Assembly (NCBI RefSeq): GCF_024979255.1
Contig: NZ_JANLCN010000003.1
Location: forward strand, 1-64,000
DNA from: Herbiconiux moechotypicola
Lineage (GTDB): Bacteria; Actinomycetota; Actinomycetes; Actinomycetales; Microbacteriaceae
DNA length: 64,000 nucleotides
Reading direction: 5' to 3'
Position numbers and translations under genes: made by a program. Shown piece by piece: positions 5,944 to 38,265 of this stretch; position 1 is the stretch's first letter; each line of letters starts with the position of its first letter. Under the pieces are notes generated by a model. The model worked only from the letters and a program-made list of their open reading frames with translations, searched no databases and was not told the origin of the DNA.

Positions 5944-7368
5944 TCACAGGCACAGCGTCTTCGTGGTGAGGAACTCCCGCAGCCCGAACTCCCCCGCCTC
6001 GCGCCCGTGCCCCGACTGCTTGAAGCCGCCGAACGGCGCCCCCTCGGGCTCGTCGCCGCCGTTCACGTGCACGATGCCGCTCCGGATGCGCCGTGCCACC
6101 CGTGTCGCCGTCGCCGTGTCGCTCGACCACACCCCCGCGGCCAGCCCGTAGTCGGTGCCGTTCGCCACGGCCACCGCCTCCTCTTCGGAGTCGACCGGGA
6201 TGATGACGAGCACCGGCCCGAAGATCTCCTCCTGCGCGATCGTCATCGACGGCGCCACGTCGCTGAACACGGTGGGCGCCACGTAGTACCCACGCGAAAG
6301 ACCCGCAGGCGCACCGCCACCACCCACGAGCAGCCGCGCCCCCTCGCGCGATCCGGTCTCGATGTACCCCCGCACCCGGTCGCGCTGCACCGACGACACG
6401 AGCGGCCCGATGCGCACCGCCGGGTCGCGCGGGTCGCCCACCGTCCACGTCGACACCGTCTCCTCGACCGTGCGCTCCACCTCCCCGAGCCGGTGCCGCG
6501 GCACGATCATGCGCGTGAGCGCGCTGCAGGTCTGCCCGGCGTTCGGGAAGCAGCTCGCCACCCCACGCGTGACCGCCGCCGCCATCTGCAGCTCGTCGAG
6601 GTCGTCGAGCAGCAGGTTCGGCGACTTGCCGCCGAGCTCCATCGCCGTGGCCTTCACGGTCGCCGCGGCCAGCTCCGAGATGCGCCGCCCCGCCCGGGTC
6701 GACCCCGTGAACGACACCATGTCGACGAGCGGATGCGCGACCAGCGCCTCCCCCGCCTCGACGCCGTAGCCCGTGACGAGGTTGAACACCCCGGCCGGCA
6801 GTCCCACCTCGTGCACCGCCTCGGCGAGCACGAAGGCGTTGAGCGGGGTGACCTCGCTCGGCTTCAGAACGACTGTGCACCCCGCGGTGAGCGCCGCGGC
6901 GACCTTGTCGGCCGTCTGCAGCAGCGGGTAGTTCCACGGCGTGATCGCCGCGACGACGCCGACGGGCTCCTGCACCACGATCGACCCCCCCAGGAGCGTC
7001 TCGGGCTCGAGCGCGGCCGCGAGCGACGGCATGGCGAGGAACTTGTCGATCGCCGCCCCCACCTGCACCCCGCGGGTCGCCGCGGTGGTGCTGCCGAGCT
7101 CCGACTGGATGACCCGCTCCAACTCCGCGCGGCGAGCGTCGAGCGCCCGCCCCACCGCGGCCACGAGCGCGGCCCGCGCTGCCATCGGCACCGCGCGCCA
7201 CTCCTCCGCGGCCGCCGCGGCAGCTGCCACGGCCAGCTCCACCTCCGCGGCCCCGGCCTGCGGCACGGTCGCGATCACGCTCTCCGTGACGGGGTCGACC
7301 ACCTCGATCTCCGGCAGAGCGGTCTCCACCCACTCCCCGCCGATGTACAACGACGACAGCCGCTCCAT
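5944..7368 (-). CDS. NAD(P)-dependent aldehyde dehydrogenase
   Basis: Aldehyde dehydrogenase superfamily enzyme, 474 aa, oxidising an aldehyde to the acid. Landmarks in order: the Asn of AITPWNYPLLQ, TGSTRAGRRI, the general-base Glu in ELGGKSPNLLL, the catalytic Cys in NAGQTCSALTR, and the cofactor-binding Glu in EEIFGPVL. The ATG start shares one base with the stop of the upstream ATP-binding subunit gene, so it is coupled to an amino-acid importer. Together with the ThDP-dependent enzyme upstream it would convert a 2-keto acid via its decarboxylated aldehyde to a carboxylate; that scheme is inferred from gene order. Confidence 0.93.
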   Translation of the reverse strand: MERLSSLYIGGEWVETALPEIEVVDPVTESVIATVPQAGAAEVELAVAAAAAAAEEWRAVPMAARAALVAAVGRALDARRAELERVIQSELGSTTAATRGVQVGAAIDKFLAMPSLAAALEPETLLGGSIVVQEPVGVVAAITPWNYPLLQTADKVAAALTAGCTVVLKPSEVTPLNAFVLAEAVHEVGLPAGVFNLVTGYGVEAGEALVAHPLVDMVSFTGSTRAGRRISELAAATVKATAMELGGKSPNLLLDDLDELQMAAAVTRGVASCFPNAGQTCSALTRMIVPRHRLGEVERTVEETVSTWTVGDPRDPAVRIGPLVSSVQRDRVRGYIETGSREGARLLVGGGGAPAGLSRGYYVAPTVFSDVAPSMTIAQEEIFGPVLVIIPVDSEEEAVAVANGTDYGLAAGVWSSDTATATRVARRIRSGIVHVNGGDEPEGAPFGGFKQSGHGREAGEFGLREFLTTKTLCL

Positions 7369-8210
7369 CAGGCCGCCTTCCCCGACGAGAACACCCGCGA
7401 CACGAAGTTGATCGTGCGCTCCTCCTTCGGGTTCATCAGCACCTCGGAGGGGTGGCCGCTCTCCACGATCCGCCCGCCGTCCATGAACACCACCCGGCTG
7501 GCCACGTCATGGGCGAAGGTGAGCTCGTGCGTCACCACCACCATCGTCATGCCCTCGGCCGCGATGTCGCGCATCACCTGGAGCACCTCGCCCACGAGCT
7601 CGGGGTCGAGCGCCGAGGTGGGCTCGTCGAACAGCATCACCGACGGCCGCATGGCGAGCGCGCGGGCGATCGCCACCCGCTGCTGCTGCCCACCGCTGAG
7701 GTTGCGCGCGAAGGCGTCTTTGCGGTCGATCATGCCGACCCGCTCGAGCTGCAGCAGGGCCTCGTCGCGGGCGGCCTGCTTCGACAGTCCCTTGAGGGTG
7801 CGCGGCGCCACCATCACGTTCTCGATGGCCGACATGTGCGGAAAGAGGTTGAACCGCTGGAACACCATCCCGATCTGCATGCGCTGCCGCTGCACGTGCT
7901 TCTGCTTCGCCGTCATGAGCCGCCCGAAGCGGTTGCGCTCGAAGCCGATGACGTCGTGGTCGAGCTCGATGTGCCCGAGGTCGGGCGACTCGAGGTTGTT
8001 CATGCAGCGCAGCAGCGTGCTCTTGCCGGAGCCGGAGGGCCCGATGATGCACGTGGTCTCGCCCGCGTGGCACTGCAGGCTGATGCCCTTCAGCACCTCC
8101 AGGCTGCCGTAGCTCTTGTGCACCTGGCGCACCTCGATGGTGCCCGGGTTCTGCACCTCGAATCCGGCAGAACCGGCCGAACCGGACTTAGGAAGCCGTG
8201 GAATCGCCAT
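7368..8210 (-). CDS. Polar amino-acid ABC transporter ATP-binding protein
   Basis: GlnQ/HisP-type ATPase, 280 aa, energising an amino-acid importer at the inner face of the membrane. Walker A is GPSGSGKST, the signature is [15 protein letters not shown], and Walker B with D-loop is [14 protein letters not shown]; the switch His is in VVTHEL. A 23-residue extension precedes the ABC domain. A ribosome site (GGAGG) stands 4 nt before the ATG at 8210, inside the 3' end of the permease gene. Its matching binding protein is encoded across the divergent region at 12504. The substrate is a polar amino acid or analogue by family. Confidence 0.93.
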
Positions 8211-11108: not shown

Positions 11109-12413
11109 ATGGGATCCAAACCGTTCCACCTGGGCTGGTTCACGAACTACGCCACTCCGGTGTGGCAGGGCCCGTGGTCGGGCAACGAGACCACGTCGTG
11201 GATGGACGGCGAGTTCTACGTCGACATGGCCAAGTCGATGGAGCGGGCCGGCTTCGACTTCATCATGCTCGAGGACTCCGAGATCGTGCCCGACGCCTAC
11301 GGGGAGTCGATGGTGAAGGCCCTGAAGTACAACATGAGCGCCCCCAAGCTCGACCCCGTGCTGCTGCTGCCGGCCATCGCCCGCGAGACCGACAAGCTCG
11401 GCCTCGTCGCCACCATGACCACGAGCTTCTACCCGCCCTTCATCCTCGCCCGGTCGATGCAGACCCTCGACCACATGACGCACGGCCGGGTGGGCTGGAA
11501 CATCGTCACCTCGAGCGAGGACCGCGCGGCCCAGAACTTCGGCCTCGACAAGCTCTACGAGCACGACGAGCGCTACGAGCGCGCCGAGGAGTTCACCGAC
11601 CTGGTGGGCGAGCTCTGGAACTCGTGGAAGCCGGATGCGCTGGTCGCCGACTACGAGACCGGCACCTACACCGACGGCGACAAGGTGGAGGTCATCGACT
11701 TCAAGGGCACCTATTACTCCAGCCGCGGGCCCCTCAACGTGCCGCCCGGGCCGCAGGGCCGCCCGGTCATCTGCCAGGCCGGCTCCTCGGAGCGCGGACG
11801 CGAGTTCGCCGCCAAGTACGCCGAGATCATCCTCGCCGTGCCCACGGGCCTCGAGCGCCAGAAGCAGTTCCGCGACGACATCCGGGCCCGCATGGAGCGC
11901 ATCGGTCGCGACCCCGACAGCTGCAAGATCCTCTTCATCGCCGAGCCCGTGCTGGGCTCCACCCAGGCCGAGGCCGAGGCGGTGTGGGAGAAGATGAACG
12001 AGCCCACCGACGCCAACGTCGAGCGCGGCCTGATCGGCATGAGCACGGTGACCGACATCGACTTCTCGAAGTTCCCCCTCGACGAGCCGCTGCCCAAAGA
12101 CCTCACCACCAACGGCCACCAGTCGAGCCTGAAGAACTTCTACACCTACGGCGAGACCCTCCGCGACGTGGCCATGACCTGGCTCTACCACTACGCCGAC
12201 AAGAGCCTCGTGGGCACCCCCGACAAGGTCGCCGAGCGCATGGAGGAGATGATGGACTACGTGGGAGGAGACGGTTTCCTCATGCACGGCCCCATGTCGC
12301 GCCGCTACATCAGCGAGGTCTGCGACGGGCTCGTCCCCGCGCTCCAGCGCCGCGGGCTCACGCGCACCTCCTACACGCACGACACACTGCGCGAGAACCT
12401 CCTCGCCTTCTGA
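11109..12413 (+). CDS. NtaA/DmoA-family FMN-dependent monooxygenase (paralogue 2)
   Basis: Second LLM-class flavin monooxygenase of the window, 434 aa, expected to need reduced FMN from an external reductase. It shares with the other two KPFHLGWF, IMLEDSEIVPDAYG, TMTTSFYPPFILARSMQTL, DHMTHGRVGWNIVTSSEDRAAQNFG and the tail RTSYTHDTLRENLLAF. The ATG at 11109 is preferred over an in-frame start at 11070, because GGGAGG lies 8 nt upstream of it. It leads a plus-strand set with an amino-acid binding lipoprotein and an MDR-type dehydrogenase, so its substrate may be imported by the adjacent ABC system. The chemistry (C-N, C-S or other hydroxylation) cannot be told from sequence. Confidence 0.92.
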   Translation: MGSKPFHLGWFTNYATPVWQGPWSGNETTSWMDGEFYVDMAKSMERAGFDFIMLEDSEIVPDAYGESMVKALKYNMSAPKLDPVLLLPAIARETDKLGLVATMTTSFYPPFILARSMQTLDHMTHGRVGWNIVTSSEDRAAQNFGLDKLYEHDERYERAEEFTDLVGELWNSWKPDALVADYETGTYTDGDKVEVIDFKGTYYSSRGPLNVPPGPQGRPVICQAGSSERGREFAAKYAEIILAVPTGLERQKQFRDDIRARMERIGRDPDSCKILFIAEPVLGSTQAEAEAVWEKMNEPTDANVERGLIGMSTVTDIDFSKFPLDEPLPKDLTTNGHQSSLKNFYTYGETLRDVAMTWLYHYADKSLVGTPDKVAERMEEMMDYVGGDGFLMHGPMSRRYISEVCDGLVPALQRRGLTRTSYTHDTLRENLLAF

Positions 12414-12503
12414 GCCGCACCACCCGGAAGCACCACCGCACCACCTGTTCCACCAGCACCAGCCGCACCGATCATCCCGACAACCAAGCGACAGGAATCT
12501 GGA

Positions 12504-13430
12504 ATGCCCACCTCTCACATCACCCGCGCCGGCCGCAGCCGCCGGCTGCTCGCGCCGCTCGCCCTCACCGCCGTCACCGCGATCGCCCTCGCGGGCTGCG
12601 CCAGCGGCAGCTCGGCCGAGACCACGGCCACGCCCGACGCCGAGCTCAGCGAGCTCGCCGCCCAGCTGCCCCAGTCGATCCTCGACAAGGGCAAGATCGA
12701 CGACCTCGTGCAGACGCCGGCGGCGCCGTTCGAGTTCGTCGACGAGTCGACCGGTGAGCTCACCGGCATCGACATCGACCTCACCAACCGCATCTCCGAG
12801 GTGATCGGGTTCCCGATCGAGATCACCCAGGTGAGCGACTTCGCCAACCTCATCCCGGGTGTGCAGAGCGGCCGGGCCGACATGGTGATGTCGGGCACGC
12901 TCGACAAGCTCGAGCGTCAGGACGTGGTCGACATCGTCGACTACTTCACCACCGGCACCGTCTTCATGAAGCTCGCCTCCAACAGCGACATCAACGGCTA
13001 CGAGGACCTCTGCGGGCAGACCGTCGTGACCGCCAGCGGCACCGACTACCCGAGCCAGACGCAGGCGATCTCGGAGGAGTACTGCGGCGACCCGAACAGC
13101 ATCCAGATCCTCACCACCTCGTCGGGCTTCGGCGACTACGTGAACCAGCTGGAGCTCGGCCGCGCGGTGGCCCTCGTCAACGGCTCCGACTTCAGCGCCT
13201 ACGAGGCCGCCGAGAACTACCCCGACGAGCTCGAGGTGGTGGGCGACCCCGTCATCAACCCGGGTGTCTACGGCGTTCTCGTGAACAAGGATCTGCCGGA
13301 GCTCCGCGACGTCATCCAGCAGGCGCTCACCATCATGATCGAGGACGGCAGCTACCAGGAGATCCTCGAGAAGTGGGGTCAGGGAGCGGCCGCAGTCGAC
13401 GAGATCACCATCAACTCCGCCACCCAGTAG
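12504..13430 (+). CDS. Amino-acid ABC transporter substrate-binding lipoprotein
   Basis: Periplasmic-binding-protein-like lipoprotein, 308 aa. The signal peptide has twin Arg residues and a hydrophobic core (LLAPLALTAVTAIALAGC) ending in a lipobox LAGC, so Cys33 is the expected lipidated residue. The mature part has the SBP_bac_3 layout (FEFVDESTGELTGIDIDLTNRI, GRADMVMSG, VVTASGTDY). It is the missing third component of the importer encoded on the other strand at 7368-9141. It follows the monooxygenase by 90 bp, which suggests that transporter and oxygenase act on the same compound or its derivative. Confidence 0.92.
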   Translation: MPTSHITRAGRSRRLLAPLALTAVTAIALAGCASGSSAETTATPDAELSELAAQLPQSILDKGKIDDLVQTPAAPFEFVDESTGELTGIDIDLTNRISEVIGFPIEITQVSDFANLIPGVQSGRADMVMSGTLDKLERQDVVDIVDYFTTGTVFMKLASNSDINGYEDLCGQTVVTASGTDYPSQTQAISEEYCGDPNSIQILTTSSGFGDYVNQLELGRAVALVNGSDFSAYEAAENYPDELEVVGDPVINPGVYGVLVNKDLPELRDVIQQALTIMIEDGSYQEILEKWGQGAAAVDEITINSATQ

Positions 13431-34325: not shown

Positions 34326-37300
34326 GTGAACGCACTCGAGTCCGCATCGCGGGAGTGGCGCGCCGCGCTGATCGACGTGGGCGGCACCAACCGGCTGCTG
34401 CACTTCAGGGCGACGGGCACCACGCTCGATCTGGCGGGGGCTCAGGATGCGGCGCTCACGCGGCTGCTCGACGGCGGCTCGGTCACGCTCGCAGAGCTCT
34501 TCGACGACGAGGCGGCCCGAGTCGCCGCGGTGAAGGCCGTCGCGGGACTGGCCAAGAAGCAGCAGGAGGCGCTGGAGGAGTACGGCGTCTCGATCGCCTA
34601 CCTCGCGGCCGGACTGTGCAGCTGGGAGGGCGACGGGGCGCCGAGCGCCGCACCCGTTCTGCTGCGCGGCGTCGAGCTCGTGCGGCGACGAGGGGCGCGT
34701 GAGTCGTGGAGCCTGCGGGCGGCCGACGAGTTCCAGGTGAACCCGGTGCTGCTGCACGTGCTCAACTCCGACCGCGTGCGGGTCGACGACGACGAACTGC
34801 TCGCCGAGGCGGCGGCGACGGATGCGGGCGTGGCGTTCGAACGACTGGCCGCGGCGTGCGCCGACCTGCCCGGGTTCGCCGTCGCGCCGGCGCTCGTCGT
34901 TGGGGCGTTCAGCTACGCGAAGCAGCCGATGGTCGACGACGTCACCGACCTCGCGGCCCTGGCCGGCCACGACGTGGTCTCGGCGCTGGCCGGTGACCTC
35001 GCGGCGGCCGAGCGGGTGCGCGCATCCGGTGCCGACCGCGAGGAGAACGCGCCCGACTACGAGCCCGTCGAGACCGAATATCTGGTGCTCGACGCCGATG
35101 CGAGCCAGGCGTTCGTGGTCGACGCGGCGGTGTCGGGGCGGAGCCTCGTGGTGGAGGGGCCGCCCGGAACGGGCAAGAGCCAGACCATCGCGAACATCAT
35201 CGCGGCCTCGGTGGCGGCGGGGCGCAGCGTGCTGTTCGTGGCGCAGAAGCGCGCGGCGATCTCGGCGGTGCTCGACCGGCTCGACCGGGTGGAGCTCGGG
35301 CACCTGGTGCTCGATCTGTTCGCGGCGACGAACTCGCGGCGGTACGTGGCCGATCAGCTGCGGGGCGTGCTCGAACGGCAGGGCGGTGCGGTAGGTGCCG
35401 GTGCGGCGGGTGCAGGTGCGGCGGGCGACGAGGCGCGGGTCGACGAGCTGCACTACACGCTCACCAGGGCGCGCGACCTGCTCGTGCGCCACAAAGACGC
35501 GCTGCACTCCCCCACCCGCGCCTGGGGCACGAGCGCTGCCGAGATGATCGCGCTCTCCCTCGCCACCCCGTCCGAGGTGCAGAGCGACGCCCGCCTGCTC
35601 ACCTCGGAGCTGTCGGAGTGGGACGCCCTCGAACCCGCCCGCATCCGCACCGAGCTCACCGAGCTCACCCGCCTCGGGGCGCTCGACGCCGACTGGTTCA
35701 CACGACCGGGGTGGTCACCCGGCGCGCTCGGCTCGGAGGAGGCGCTGCGCACCGCGAACGACGCTCTGGCCGCGCTCGCGGCGGGTGTCGGGTCCGCGCA
35801 TCGGGCCCGGGTGGCGCTCGGCGGTGCCGAATCGCGGCTCGCGCCCACCACCTGGCCCGAGTTCGACACCGCGGTCGCGCTCTACAGCGAGAGCGACCGC
35901 CTTCTCGGGCTGGCTCCCGGCACCCTCGACCCGGCGACCGCGACCGGCACCGTGCGAGAGGCGTTGCTCACGACGAGTCGCGACTTCCGGTCGGAGACGG
36001 GCGAGCGGATGCGCGGCGCGGCCAAGCGGGCCGCCGTGCGGGCGGCGAAGGCGATGGTGGGGCGGCTGCCGCGGCGCGAGCGCGCGGCGGCACTGCGGGA
36101 TGCGCTCGAGCTGCGACAGCGCTGGGAAGCATCGGTGCCCGGCGCCGACGCGACCTTCCGGGCGCCCGAGGGCTGGCGCGACGCGGCGGCCGAGCTCGAG
36201 GCGACGCGGGGGCGGATCGCGGCGGTAGACGCGGCCCTGCAGGGGATGCACCTCGGCGAACTCCCGCTCGACTCCGTCGCCGACGCGCTGCGCGGACTCG
36301 CCGCCGACCAGCGACGAGCGGCATCGATGCCGCGGGCGCACCAGCAGCGCAGCCGCCTCGAAGCCCTCGGGCTGACTCCCCTGCTCGACGAGCTCGTGGG
36401 CCGCGACGACGTGTCGAACACCGATCCCGCCCGTGCCGCCCTCGTCTTCGACCGAGTGGTCTCCGCCTCGGTGCTCGACGAGGTGCTGCTCTACGACAGC
36501 CACCTCGCCGGCACCACCGGTGCCGAGCTCGCGGCGGCGACCGAGGTGTTCCGCCGCGACGACGTGGGGCACTTGGCCGCGAACGCCGCTCGCATCCGCC
36601 GTCTCGCCGCCGAGCGGCTCGCCTCCACTCTCGACGGGCGCCCCGACCAGCACTTGCGGCTCACCACCGAGACCACGCGCAAGAGCCGTTTCACCCCGGT
36701 GCGAAAGCTCATGACCGAGCTTCCCGAGGCGATGCTCGCGGCGAAGCCGGTGTGGGCGATGAGCCCCCTGCAGGTGTCGCGCCTGCTGCCGGCGCGGGCG
36801 GCGTTCGACCTCGTCGTGTTCGACGAGGCGAGCCAGGTGGCGCCGGCGGATGCGATCCCCGCCGTGCTGAGGGGCCGCCACCTCGTGGTGGCGGGCGACA
36901 GCCGGCAGCTGCCCCCGACGGAGTTCTTCACCAAGACCCTCGACGCCCCCGACGACGAGCTCGCCGCCGACGAGGATGCGACGCTGCCCACGGCGGTCGA
37001 TCCCACGGAGCGCGAGCCCGCCGACTCGCCCGCCGCAGCCGCCGTGCCCGATTCCGCATCCGTCGGCTCGCTCACGCGCGATGCGGAGAGCATCCTCTTC
37101 GCCATGGACCGCCTGCTCTCCGGCCGCTCGCGCAGATTGCTCTGGCACTACCGTTCCCGCGACGAGCGGCTCATCGCCGTGTCGAACGCCGAGGTCTACG
37201 ACGGCACGCTCACCACCTTCCCCGCGGCGGACACCCCCGACGCCGTGCGTCACGTGCTCGTGCCACCGAGCCCGGGCATCGGGGGCGGCACCAACAGCCC

Positions 37301-38156
37301 CGAGGGCGAGGTGGCCGCGGTCGTCGAGGCGGTGCGCGAGCACGCGCGTTCGCGCCCCGGTGAGTCGCTCGGTGTGATCGCGTTCGGGCTCAAGCACCAG
37401 CGGCGGCTCGAGTCGGCGCTGGCCGCCGCATTCGCCGCCAACCCTGCCCTCGAAGACGCGCTCGTCGACGACCACCCGGCCGAACCATTCTTCGTCAAGT
37501 CGATCGAGCGCGTGCAGGGCGACGAACGGGATGCGATCATCCTGTCCGTGGGATACGGAGTGTCGGCCGACGGGCGGCTCCGGCTGTTCTGGGGTCCGCT
37601 GCTGCAGCCCGGCGGCGAGCGCCGGCTCAACGTGGCGATCAGCCGCGCGCGGCGGCGCATGACCCTCGTGAGCAGCTTCGGCCCCGAGCTCATGGCCGAA
37701 GACGCGCACCCGAGCCGCGGCTACCGGCTGATGCGGCGGTTCCTCGTGTTCATGGCGTCCGCCGACTCTCCAGCCGTCGCCGATGCCGCTGTGCCGAGCG
37801 CGCACGTGCAACACGGTGCACACGGGCTCGACGCGTTCGAGCGGGATGTGCGCGACAGGCTGACCACGGCGGGCATCCCCCTCGACACCCGGGTCGGCGT
37901 CGGGTCGTACCGCATCGAGCTCGCGGCACGGCACCCGGAGGTTCCGGGGCGCCACGTGCTCGCGATCGAGACCGACGGCGGCGCGTACCGTTCAGGTCAC
38001 ACCGCCCGCGAGCGCGACCGCCTGCGCCAGGAACTGCTCGAACGCCGCGGCTGGTCGTTCCACCGCATCTGGAGCACCGACTGGTTCGCCGACCCCGACT
38101 CCCAGACCGCCGCCGCCCTCACCGCCTACCGCGCGGCCGTAGCCCGCGCCGACTGA
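34326..38156 (+). CDS. DUF4011 - superfamily 1 helicase - Vsr-like nuclease fusion
   Basis: A 1276-aa protein. N-terminal DUF4011-like segment: EWRAALIDVGGTNRLLHFR. SF1 helicase core: Walker A VEGPPGTGKSQTIANII (about residues 275-290), Walker B LVVFDEASQVAPADA, motif III VVAGDSRQLPPT, motif IV LLWHYRSRDERLI, motif V SIERVQGDERDAIILSVGYG and motif VI RRLNVAISRARRRM. The last 100 residues look like a Vsr/DUF559 nuclease (DAFERDVRDRL, LAIETDGGAYRSGHTARERDR, WSFHRIWSTDWF). The architecture matches single-gene candidate anti-phage proteins of the COG1112 group. GTG at 34326 is the first sensible start; GAGGAGG lies 15 nt upstream, beside a four-codon mini-ORF. Function untested. Confidence 0.85.
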   Translation: MNALESASREWRAALIDVGGTNRLLHFRATGTTLDLAGAQDAALTRLLDGGSVTLAELFDDEAARVAAVKAVAGLAKKQQEALEEYGVSIAYLAAGLCSWEGDGAPSAAPVLLRGVELVRRRGARESWSLRAADEFQVNPVLLHVLNSDRVRVDDDELLAEAAATDAGVAFERLAAACADLPGFAVAPALVVGAFSYAKQPMVDDVTDLAALAGHDVVSALAGDLAAAERVRASGADREENAPDYEPVETEYLVLDADASQAFVVDAAVSGRSLVVEGPPGTGKSQTIANIIAASVAAGRSVLFVAQKRAAISAVLDRLDRVELGHLVLDLFAATNSRRYVADQLRGVLERQGGAVGAGAAGAGAAGDEARVDELHYTLTRARDLLVRHKDALHSPTRAWGTSAAEMIALSLATPSEVQSDARLLTSELSEWDALEPARIRTELTELTRLGALDADWFTRPGWSPGALGSEEALRTANDALAALAAGVGSAHRARVALGGAESRLAPTTWPEFDTAVALYSESDRLLGLAPGTLDPATATGTVREALLTTSRDFRSETGERMRGAAKRAAVRAAKAMVGRLPRRERAAALRDALELRQRWEASVPGADATFRAPEGWRDAAAELEATRGRIAAVDAALQGMHLGELPLDSVADALRGLAADQRRAASMPRAHQQRSRLEALGLTPLLDELVGRDDVSNTDPARAALVFDRVVSASVLDEVLLYDSHLAGTTGAELAAATEVFRRDDVGHLAANAARIRRLAAERLASTLDGRPDQHLRLTTETTRKSRFTPVRKLMTELPEAMLAAKPVWAMSPLQVSRLLPARAAFDLVVFDEASQVAPADAIPAVLRGRHLVVAGDSRQLPPTEFFTKTLDAPDDELAADEDATLPTAVDPTEREPADSPAAAAVPDSASVGSLTRDAESILFAMDRLLSGRSRRLLWHYRSRDERLIAVSNAEVYDGTLTTFPAADTPDAVRHVLVPPSPGIGGGTNSPEGEVAAVVEAVREHARSRPGESLGVIAFGLKHQRRLESALAAAFAANPALEDALVDDHPAEPFFVKSIERVQGDERDAIILSVGYGVSADGRLRLFWGPLLQPGGERRLNVAISRARRRMTLVSSFGPELMAEDAHPSRGYRLMRRFLVFMASADSPAVADAAVPSAHVQHGAHGLDAFERDVRDRLTTAGIPLDTRVGVGSYRIELAARHPEVPGRHVLAIETDGGAYRSGHTARERDRLRQELLERRGWSFHRIWSTDWFADPDSQTAAALTAYRAAVARAD

Positions 38157-38193
38157 CCCGCCGCGCATCCCGCCCGGCCCGCGGATCCCCCGG

Positions 38194-38265
38194 CCCACGC
38201 ATCCCGCCCGGCCCACGCATCCCGCCCGGCCCACGCATCCCGCCCGGCCCACGCATCCCGCCCGC
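38194..38265. repeat. Four tandem copies of an 18-bp unit
   Basis: CCCACGCATCCCGCCCGG is repeated head-to-tail at 38194, 38212, 38230 and 38248, the last copy differing in its final bases. It is in the 326-bp gap 38157-38482 between the helicase and dgdA genes, which otherwise holds only the palindromic element at 38332 and no gene. The unit contains the CGCATCC heptamer. Probably replication slippage. Confidence 0.8.

Follow-up and report, generated by a model that had tools for sequence, protein, structure and literature searches.

A rare DUF4011-helicase-nuclease gene of Herbiconiux moechotypicola as a candidate single-gene defence with an altered nuclease active site

A gene of Herbiconiux moechotypicola, located within the 64,000-nucleotide stretch of DNA analysed here (the window), encodes a DUF4011 domain, a superfamily 1 (SF1) helicase and a Vsr-like nuclease in a single chain. 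On balance, its sequence and relatives favour an accessory, horizontally moving single-gene defence of the PDC-S37 type, which would act against phages and/or other mobile DNA. A close ortholog in another genus resides on an integrative island, and the helicase motifs of the window protein are intact. Two residues of its nuclease active site are replaced, and a family-wide paralog in the same genome has lost the catalytic motifs of both enzymatic domains.

Reading frame and domain architecture

The gene occupies positions 34326..38156 of the forward strand as an intact open reading frame of 1276 amino acids, with a GTG start, a TGA stop at 38154-38156 and zero internal stops. The frame is already open from 34260, upstream of the GTG at 34326, and homology sets in at that codon, where the residues VNALESASREW align with the DUF4011 start of homologs. 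The GC content by codon position (0.77/0.53/0.91) resembles that of adjoining genes, and a foreign base composition was rejected on this ground. Directly downstream, an 18-bp tandem array (CGCATCCCGCCCGGCCCA, 5.7 copies) extends over window positions 38164-38264. For the 9-mer CGCATCCCG, the window contains 21 occurrences where 2.9 are expected, a count that 0 of 100 shuffles reached.

Four Pfam matches, all exceeding their curated cut-offs and far beyond chance, define the architecture. The preliminary description of this DNA, made from its letters, had recognised a DUF4011-like N-terminus and a full set of SF1 helicase motifs, and both assignments hold. The DUF4011 domain (PF13195, E 8.9e-13) spans residues 15-146 (34368..34763, forward strand, as are all features below), and AAA_11 (E 2e-16) accompanies AAA_12 (PF13087, E 3e-9), the second RecA-like lobe at residues 993-1116 (37302..37673), which contains motifs V and VI. 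Each of the SF1 motifs I, II, III, V and VI was examined in an alignment and is intact, in the Upf1-like form of COG1112. These include the Walker A sequence GPPGTGKS (residues 278-285, 35157..35180) and the Walker B or motif II sequence FDEASQ (residues 832-837, 36819..36836), as well as GDSRQLPPT, VQGDERDA and RRLNVAISRAR (from residue 1099). The solved helicases nearest by sequence are SMUBP2, DNA2 and UPF1. The region of residues 1-255, which holds the DUF4011 domain, gave a moderate predicted model (pLDDT 77), and a fold search with this model returned a best Z score of 2.9, with no trustworthy match.

An altered active site in the nuclease domain

The C-terminal domain, MTES_1575 (residues 1171-1262, 37836..38111; E 1.9e-28), scores 98.8 bits against a Pfam cut-off of 38.2. 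Its structure was predicted alone with 8 homologs (pLDDT 86.7), and the model superposes on the catalytic domain of I-Bth0305I (3r3p; Z 12.9, rmsd 2.8 over 96 residues), a putative endonuclease from Neisseria (3hrl; Z 12.5) and Vsr (1cw0; Z 10.6, rmsd 4.2 over 110 residues; and 1vsr; Z 9.6, rmsd 2.7 over 98 residues). The predicted fold as well as the sequence therefore supports a Vsr-like domain of the EDxHD type. The earlier suggestion of a Vsr/DUF559-like nuclease with a Glu-x-Asp-Gly region is likewise borne out by the sequence AIETDG at residues 1213-1218.

The same description had assumed a working nuclease and missed two changes in the active site that place this assumption in doubt. 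When 17 close homologs are aligned with the window protein, their nuclease residues follow the consensus ...(R)ID(F/L/V)...xE(x)DG..YH... In the window protein, RIDxA is replaced by RIELA, with Glu for Asp at E1198 (GAG, 37917..37919), and YHS by YRS (in YRSG), with Arg for His at R1222 (CGT, 37989..37991). The Asp of RID is invariant in 17 of the 17 homologs, all of them classed as active, and the His is replaced in two only (Arg in L074 and Ala in L076). Both residues are kept in the nearest relatives, namely the ortholog in genome G186 and two Micrococcus proteins. The window protein thus lacks the conserved Asp and His of the Vsr/EDxHD active site, positions that we take to correspond to metal- or water-handling residues in these families. 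Given this conservation among the 17 close homologs, complete for the Asp and nearly complete for the His, cutting by the window nuclease is doubtful. With the frame otherwise intact, the altered residues may mean that the nuclease has changed in function or that the gene has begun to decay.

Classification against known systems

When the protein was searched with defence-system profiles, as the preliminary description had suggested, the top PADLOC model was PDC-S37 (777 bits, E 1e-233), a placement made by bit score. The match spans most of the protein in three stretches, the best at residues 617-1274; the scores for Hhe, MkoA and MkoC are 389, 93 and 59 bits, respectively, and relatives of the window protein reach 797-908 bits against PDC-S37. 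The earlier remark that DUF4011-helicase-Vsr fusions have been listed as candidates is correct, PDC-S37 being a single-gene candidate in PADLOC. The order DUF4011, SF1 helicase, Vsr-like nuclease is the same in the relatives scanned. The PDC-S37 model is 1550 long, and the window protein, which differs from this kind in the Asp-to-Glu and His-to-Arg replacements of its nuclease, stops right after that domain, like the two Micrococcus homologs. It lacks the C-terminal tail of about 90 amino acids present in the G186 and Dactylosporangium homologs. Displacement of this tail into another downstream frame was rejected, as a search gave no match and the Micrococcus homologs end at the same point. 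The neighbouring genes differ among the window, G186, Micrococcus, Nakamurella and Dactylosporangium loci, in keeping with a single-gene system, and inspection of these five loci revealed no common partner gene.

The window protein shares a homologous helicase-Vsr core with Hhe (NCBIfam NF042953; PADLOC Hhe) and with MTES_1575 of Microbacterium testaceum, the giant HEPN-transglutaminase-SF1-Vsr-wHTH protein that gives the nuclease domain its name. Giant proteins of this kind have been proposed as modification-independent, DNA-targeting defence proteins (PMC3710099). The window protein is about 500-700 amino acids shorter than either, yields no Pfam match to HEPN at E<=10 and none to transglutaminase or the DUF3320 wHTH, and scores 493.9 bits against the curated Hhe cut-off of 2000. 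The anti-phage protein ProA (NCBIfam NF058533, model length 1903) matches over the common core with 729.2 bits, half of its curated cut-off of 1500. Since the Hhe and ProA scores lie below their cut-offs and the HEPN, transglutaminase and DUF3320 domains are missing, the protein is, by sequence, best filed as a shorter member of the PDC-S37 kind, previously catalogued as a single-gene candidate.

A parallel with Mokosh had also been drawn. It stands for the SF1 helicase, whose lobes are alike and which accounts for the 93-bit MkoA score, and for nothing beyond: only the motor region matches MkoA and MkoC, Pfam detects no PLD domain in the window protein, and no neighbouring gene matches a Mokosh model. 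Membership in Mokosh or Hhe was rejected on domains and cut-offs. Relative to the Vsr and I-Bth0305I (EDxHD) nucleases, the window domain has a similar fold but is fused to a helicase, with the conserved Asp and His replaced. NCBI names two relatives of the window protein anti-phage proteins; a search of the available literature on PDC-S37, ProA and DUF4011 returned no functional work, and no phage or plasmid assay for PDC-S37.

Sporadic distribution and an integrative island

A close ortholog occurs in 1 of 16 congeners, namely the genome of the window itself, and in 2 of 200 genomes and 2 of 85 genera of the family, the second being G186. Across the phylum, 7 of 396 genomes, including that of the window, contain a match at E<=1e-100. 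The housekeeping-like distribution that the preliminary description had set against a defence role was therefore not seen for this gene, and the pattern favours an accessory, mobile one. The G186 ortholog is 51-55% identical to the window protein. The nearest homologs from named genomes are those of Micrococcus sp. (50-58%) and of Dactylosporangium and Nakamurella, the latter two with segment identities of about 38-51%. A tree built on the helicase-nuclease half unites the window and G186 proteins with those of Micrococcus, a member of a different family, in a single clade (100/100), a grouping that fits lateral movement without proving it. A phage search returned one phage record, unannotated and matching half of the query at 33.5% identity, and one viral contig; plasmid relatives are all partial and below 60% identity. 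Dactylosporangium species have common neighbours around their homolog, which looks vertically stable at its locus. In Dactylosporangium roseum and another actinomycete MAG, the DUF4011 gene has at a distance of about 5 kb or less a gene for a RecQ-like DEAD helicase whose tail resembles a phosphoribosyltransferase (L031:17593-19683, L037:18377-20491). A third, giant class of this helicase-nuclease family, with open frames of up to about 2100 amino acids, is present in several congeners (L018-L023, L027); the one member that was read through, L018, also seems to have altered nuclease residues (RVDLS...AVLLDGDSW).

The G186 ortholog (L065:8056-12132) lies within an island of about 9.0 kb (L065:5863-14885) that encodes a tyrosine integrase (L065:13386-14699; PF00589/PF02899). 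The island is bounded by 24-bp direct repeats, GATCARACCCCGAAGTACAGCTCG, near L065 positions 5863 and 14862, which are a duplication of the 3' end of glnA, the neighbouring gene for glutamine synthetase. The sister species G131, G603 and G062 each have one uninterrupted copy of this site, without the island. The integrase, the direct repeats and the empty sites in three sister species provide direct evidence that genes of this kind travel on integrative elements. Two further ORFs on the island encode 500 (6168-7670) and 415 (12129-13376) amino acids and have no match in Pfam or PADLOC.

The window copy is situated in a sugar-use region, with a GntR-type regulator, a maltose-acetyltransferase-like protein, a class III aminotransferase and an oxidoreductase. 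No integrase was found within the window, and no repeat pair resembling attachment sites around the gene. None of its neighbours has a credible PADLOC defence match, those to the neighbouring sugar ABC ATPase being generic, which agrees with the initial observation that the gene is not in a defence island. In a search of the window from 15 kb onward, most of the sequence up to about 39.9 kb was unconserved in most congeners, and syntenic matches appeared at 39.9-46.3 kb and 58.4-61.1 kb. A precise empty site could not be defined for the window copy, as the acetyltransferase and aminotransferase genes that flank it are themselves missing from most congeners.

A catalytically degenerate paralog in the family core

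The same genome encodes a second DUF4011-helicase-nuclease protein (G000:C29:86769-90539, equivalent to L064:7770-11540) that is about 31% identical to the window protein, similar in length and matching in layout, and that scores 313 bits against PDC-S37. This paralog is present in 196 of the 200 family genomes, some as small as 0.9-1.4 Mb, and in 85 of 85 genera. The Walker A sequence is LPGTGGT, not GPPGTGKS, in 30 of 30 aligned members (L084-L113), and motif II is VDAGA, not FDEAS, in the members whose sequences were printed. Motifs III, V and VI are degenerate as well, as are the nuclease residues; across the helicase, the Walker A Lys, DEAS, QLPP and QGDE are all lost. Despite the lost motifs, pairwise identity is about 65% or more. 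Of 43 loci examined, some of which come from the same genome, 41 have mscL no more than 1.5 kb away. The paralogs form a separate clade on a long branch in the tree of the helicase-nuclease half. Judged by these residues, the paralog is a conserved, catalytically dead family-core pseudo-enzyme of a defence-type family. It is thus this mscL-adjacent protein, and not the window gene, that has the housekeeping distribution.

These two classes tentatively suggest that one protein family is both mobile and domesticated within a single bacterial family, although we would hold this only as a possible reading. The dead paralog beside mscL would have a non-enzymatic core function, such as acting as a scaffold, sensing nucleic acids or neutralising active members, and the rare mobile copies, such as that of the window, which keep the motor would defend, possibly without nuclease chemistry.

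Proposed function and alternatives

In the defence mechanism that we propose, the DUF4011 N-terminus and a helical insert between motifs Ia and II would serve in recognition or regulation. The Upf1/SMUBP2-like SF1 motor may load onto a feature of invading DNA, such as an end, a fork or single-stranded DNA, and then translocate with ATP, and the C-terminal Vsr/EDxHD domain would nick or cut the DNA brought to it. The Asp-to-Glu and His-to-Arg replacements probably weaken or abolish cutting in the window copy, which may therefore be mainly a translocating or displacing helicase, or be beginning to decay. The PDC-S37 match and the sporadic distribution support the original reading of the gene as a defence candidate, although for the window copy a working nuclease is in doubt, and the altered residues speak against a classical cutting role. 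Also counted against defence are the lack of an integrase, attachment repeats or a defence neighbour at the window and the stable locus in Dactylosporangium.

That same locus, together with the metabolic neighbourhood of the window gene, would suit a DNA-repair or replication-restart enzyme, whose motor would remove structures or R-loops and whose nuclease would trim DNA that is mismatched or branched. The proximity of the helicase to SMUBP2, DNA2 and UPF1, and a nuclease fold known from the Vsr repair enzyme as well as from other proteins, point the same way. Such a role is nonetheless unlikely for a gene that is missing in 15 of 16 congeners and in 198 of 200 genomes of the family, and whose G186 ortholog rides an integrase island. 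Slightly less probable still is a defence gene that arrived intact, lost its nuclease chemistry and no longer functions in this strain. The two substitutions, absent from G186 and both Micrococcus proteins, favour decay, but the 1276-residue frame with all helicase motifs intact and the normal codon-position GC argue against it, and the His is lost in L074 and L076 as well. A gene that is cargo, serving the mobile element itself through its maintenance or by keeping out competing elements rather more than it defends the host, is improbable: the 9-kb G186 island does hold little besides the integrase and two ORFs without a Pfam match, but the window copy shows no element around it, and this role overlaps with defence, as defence genes commonly ride integrative islands.

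The PDC-S37 candidate becomes testable within one host family, which offers an island ortholog with an intact active site (G186), a variant with an altered nuclease (the window protein) and a pseudo-enzyme (the core paralog). The paralog is also a caution for defence surveys that rely on profiles, which could score a family-core pseudo-enzyme as a defence system throughout this bacterial family.
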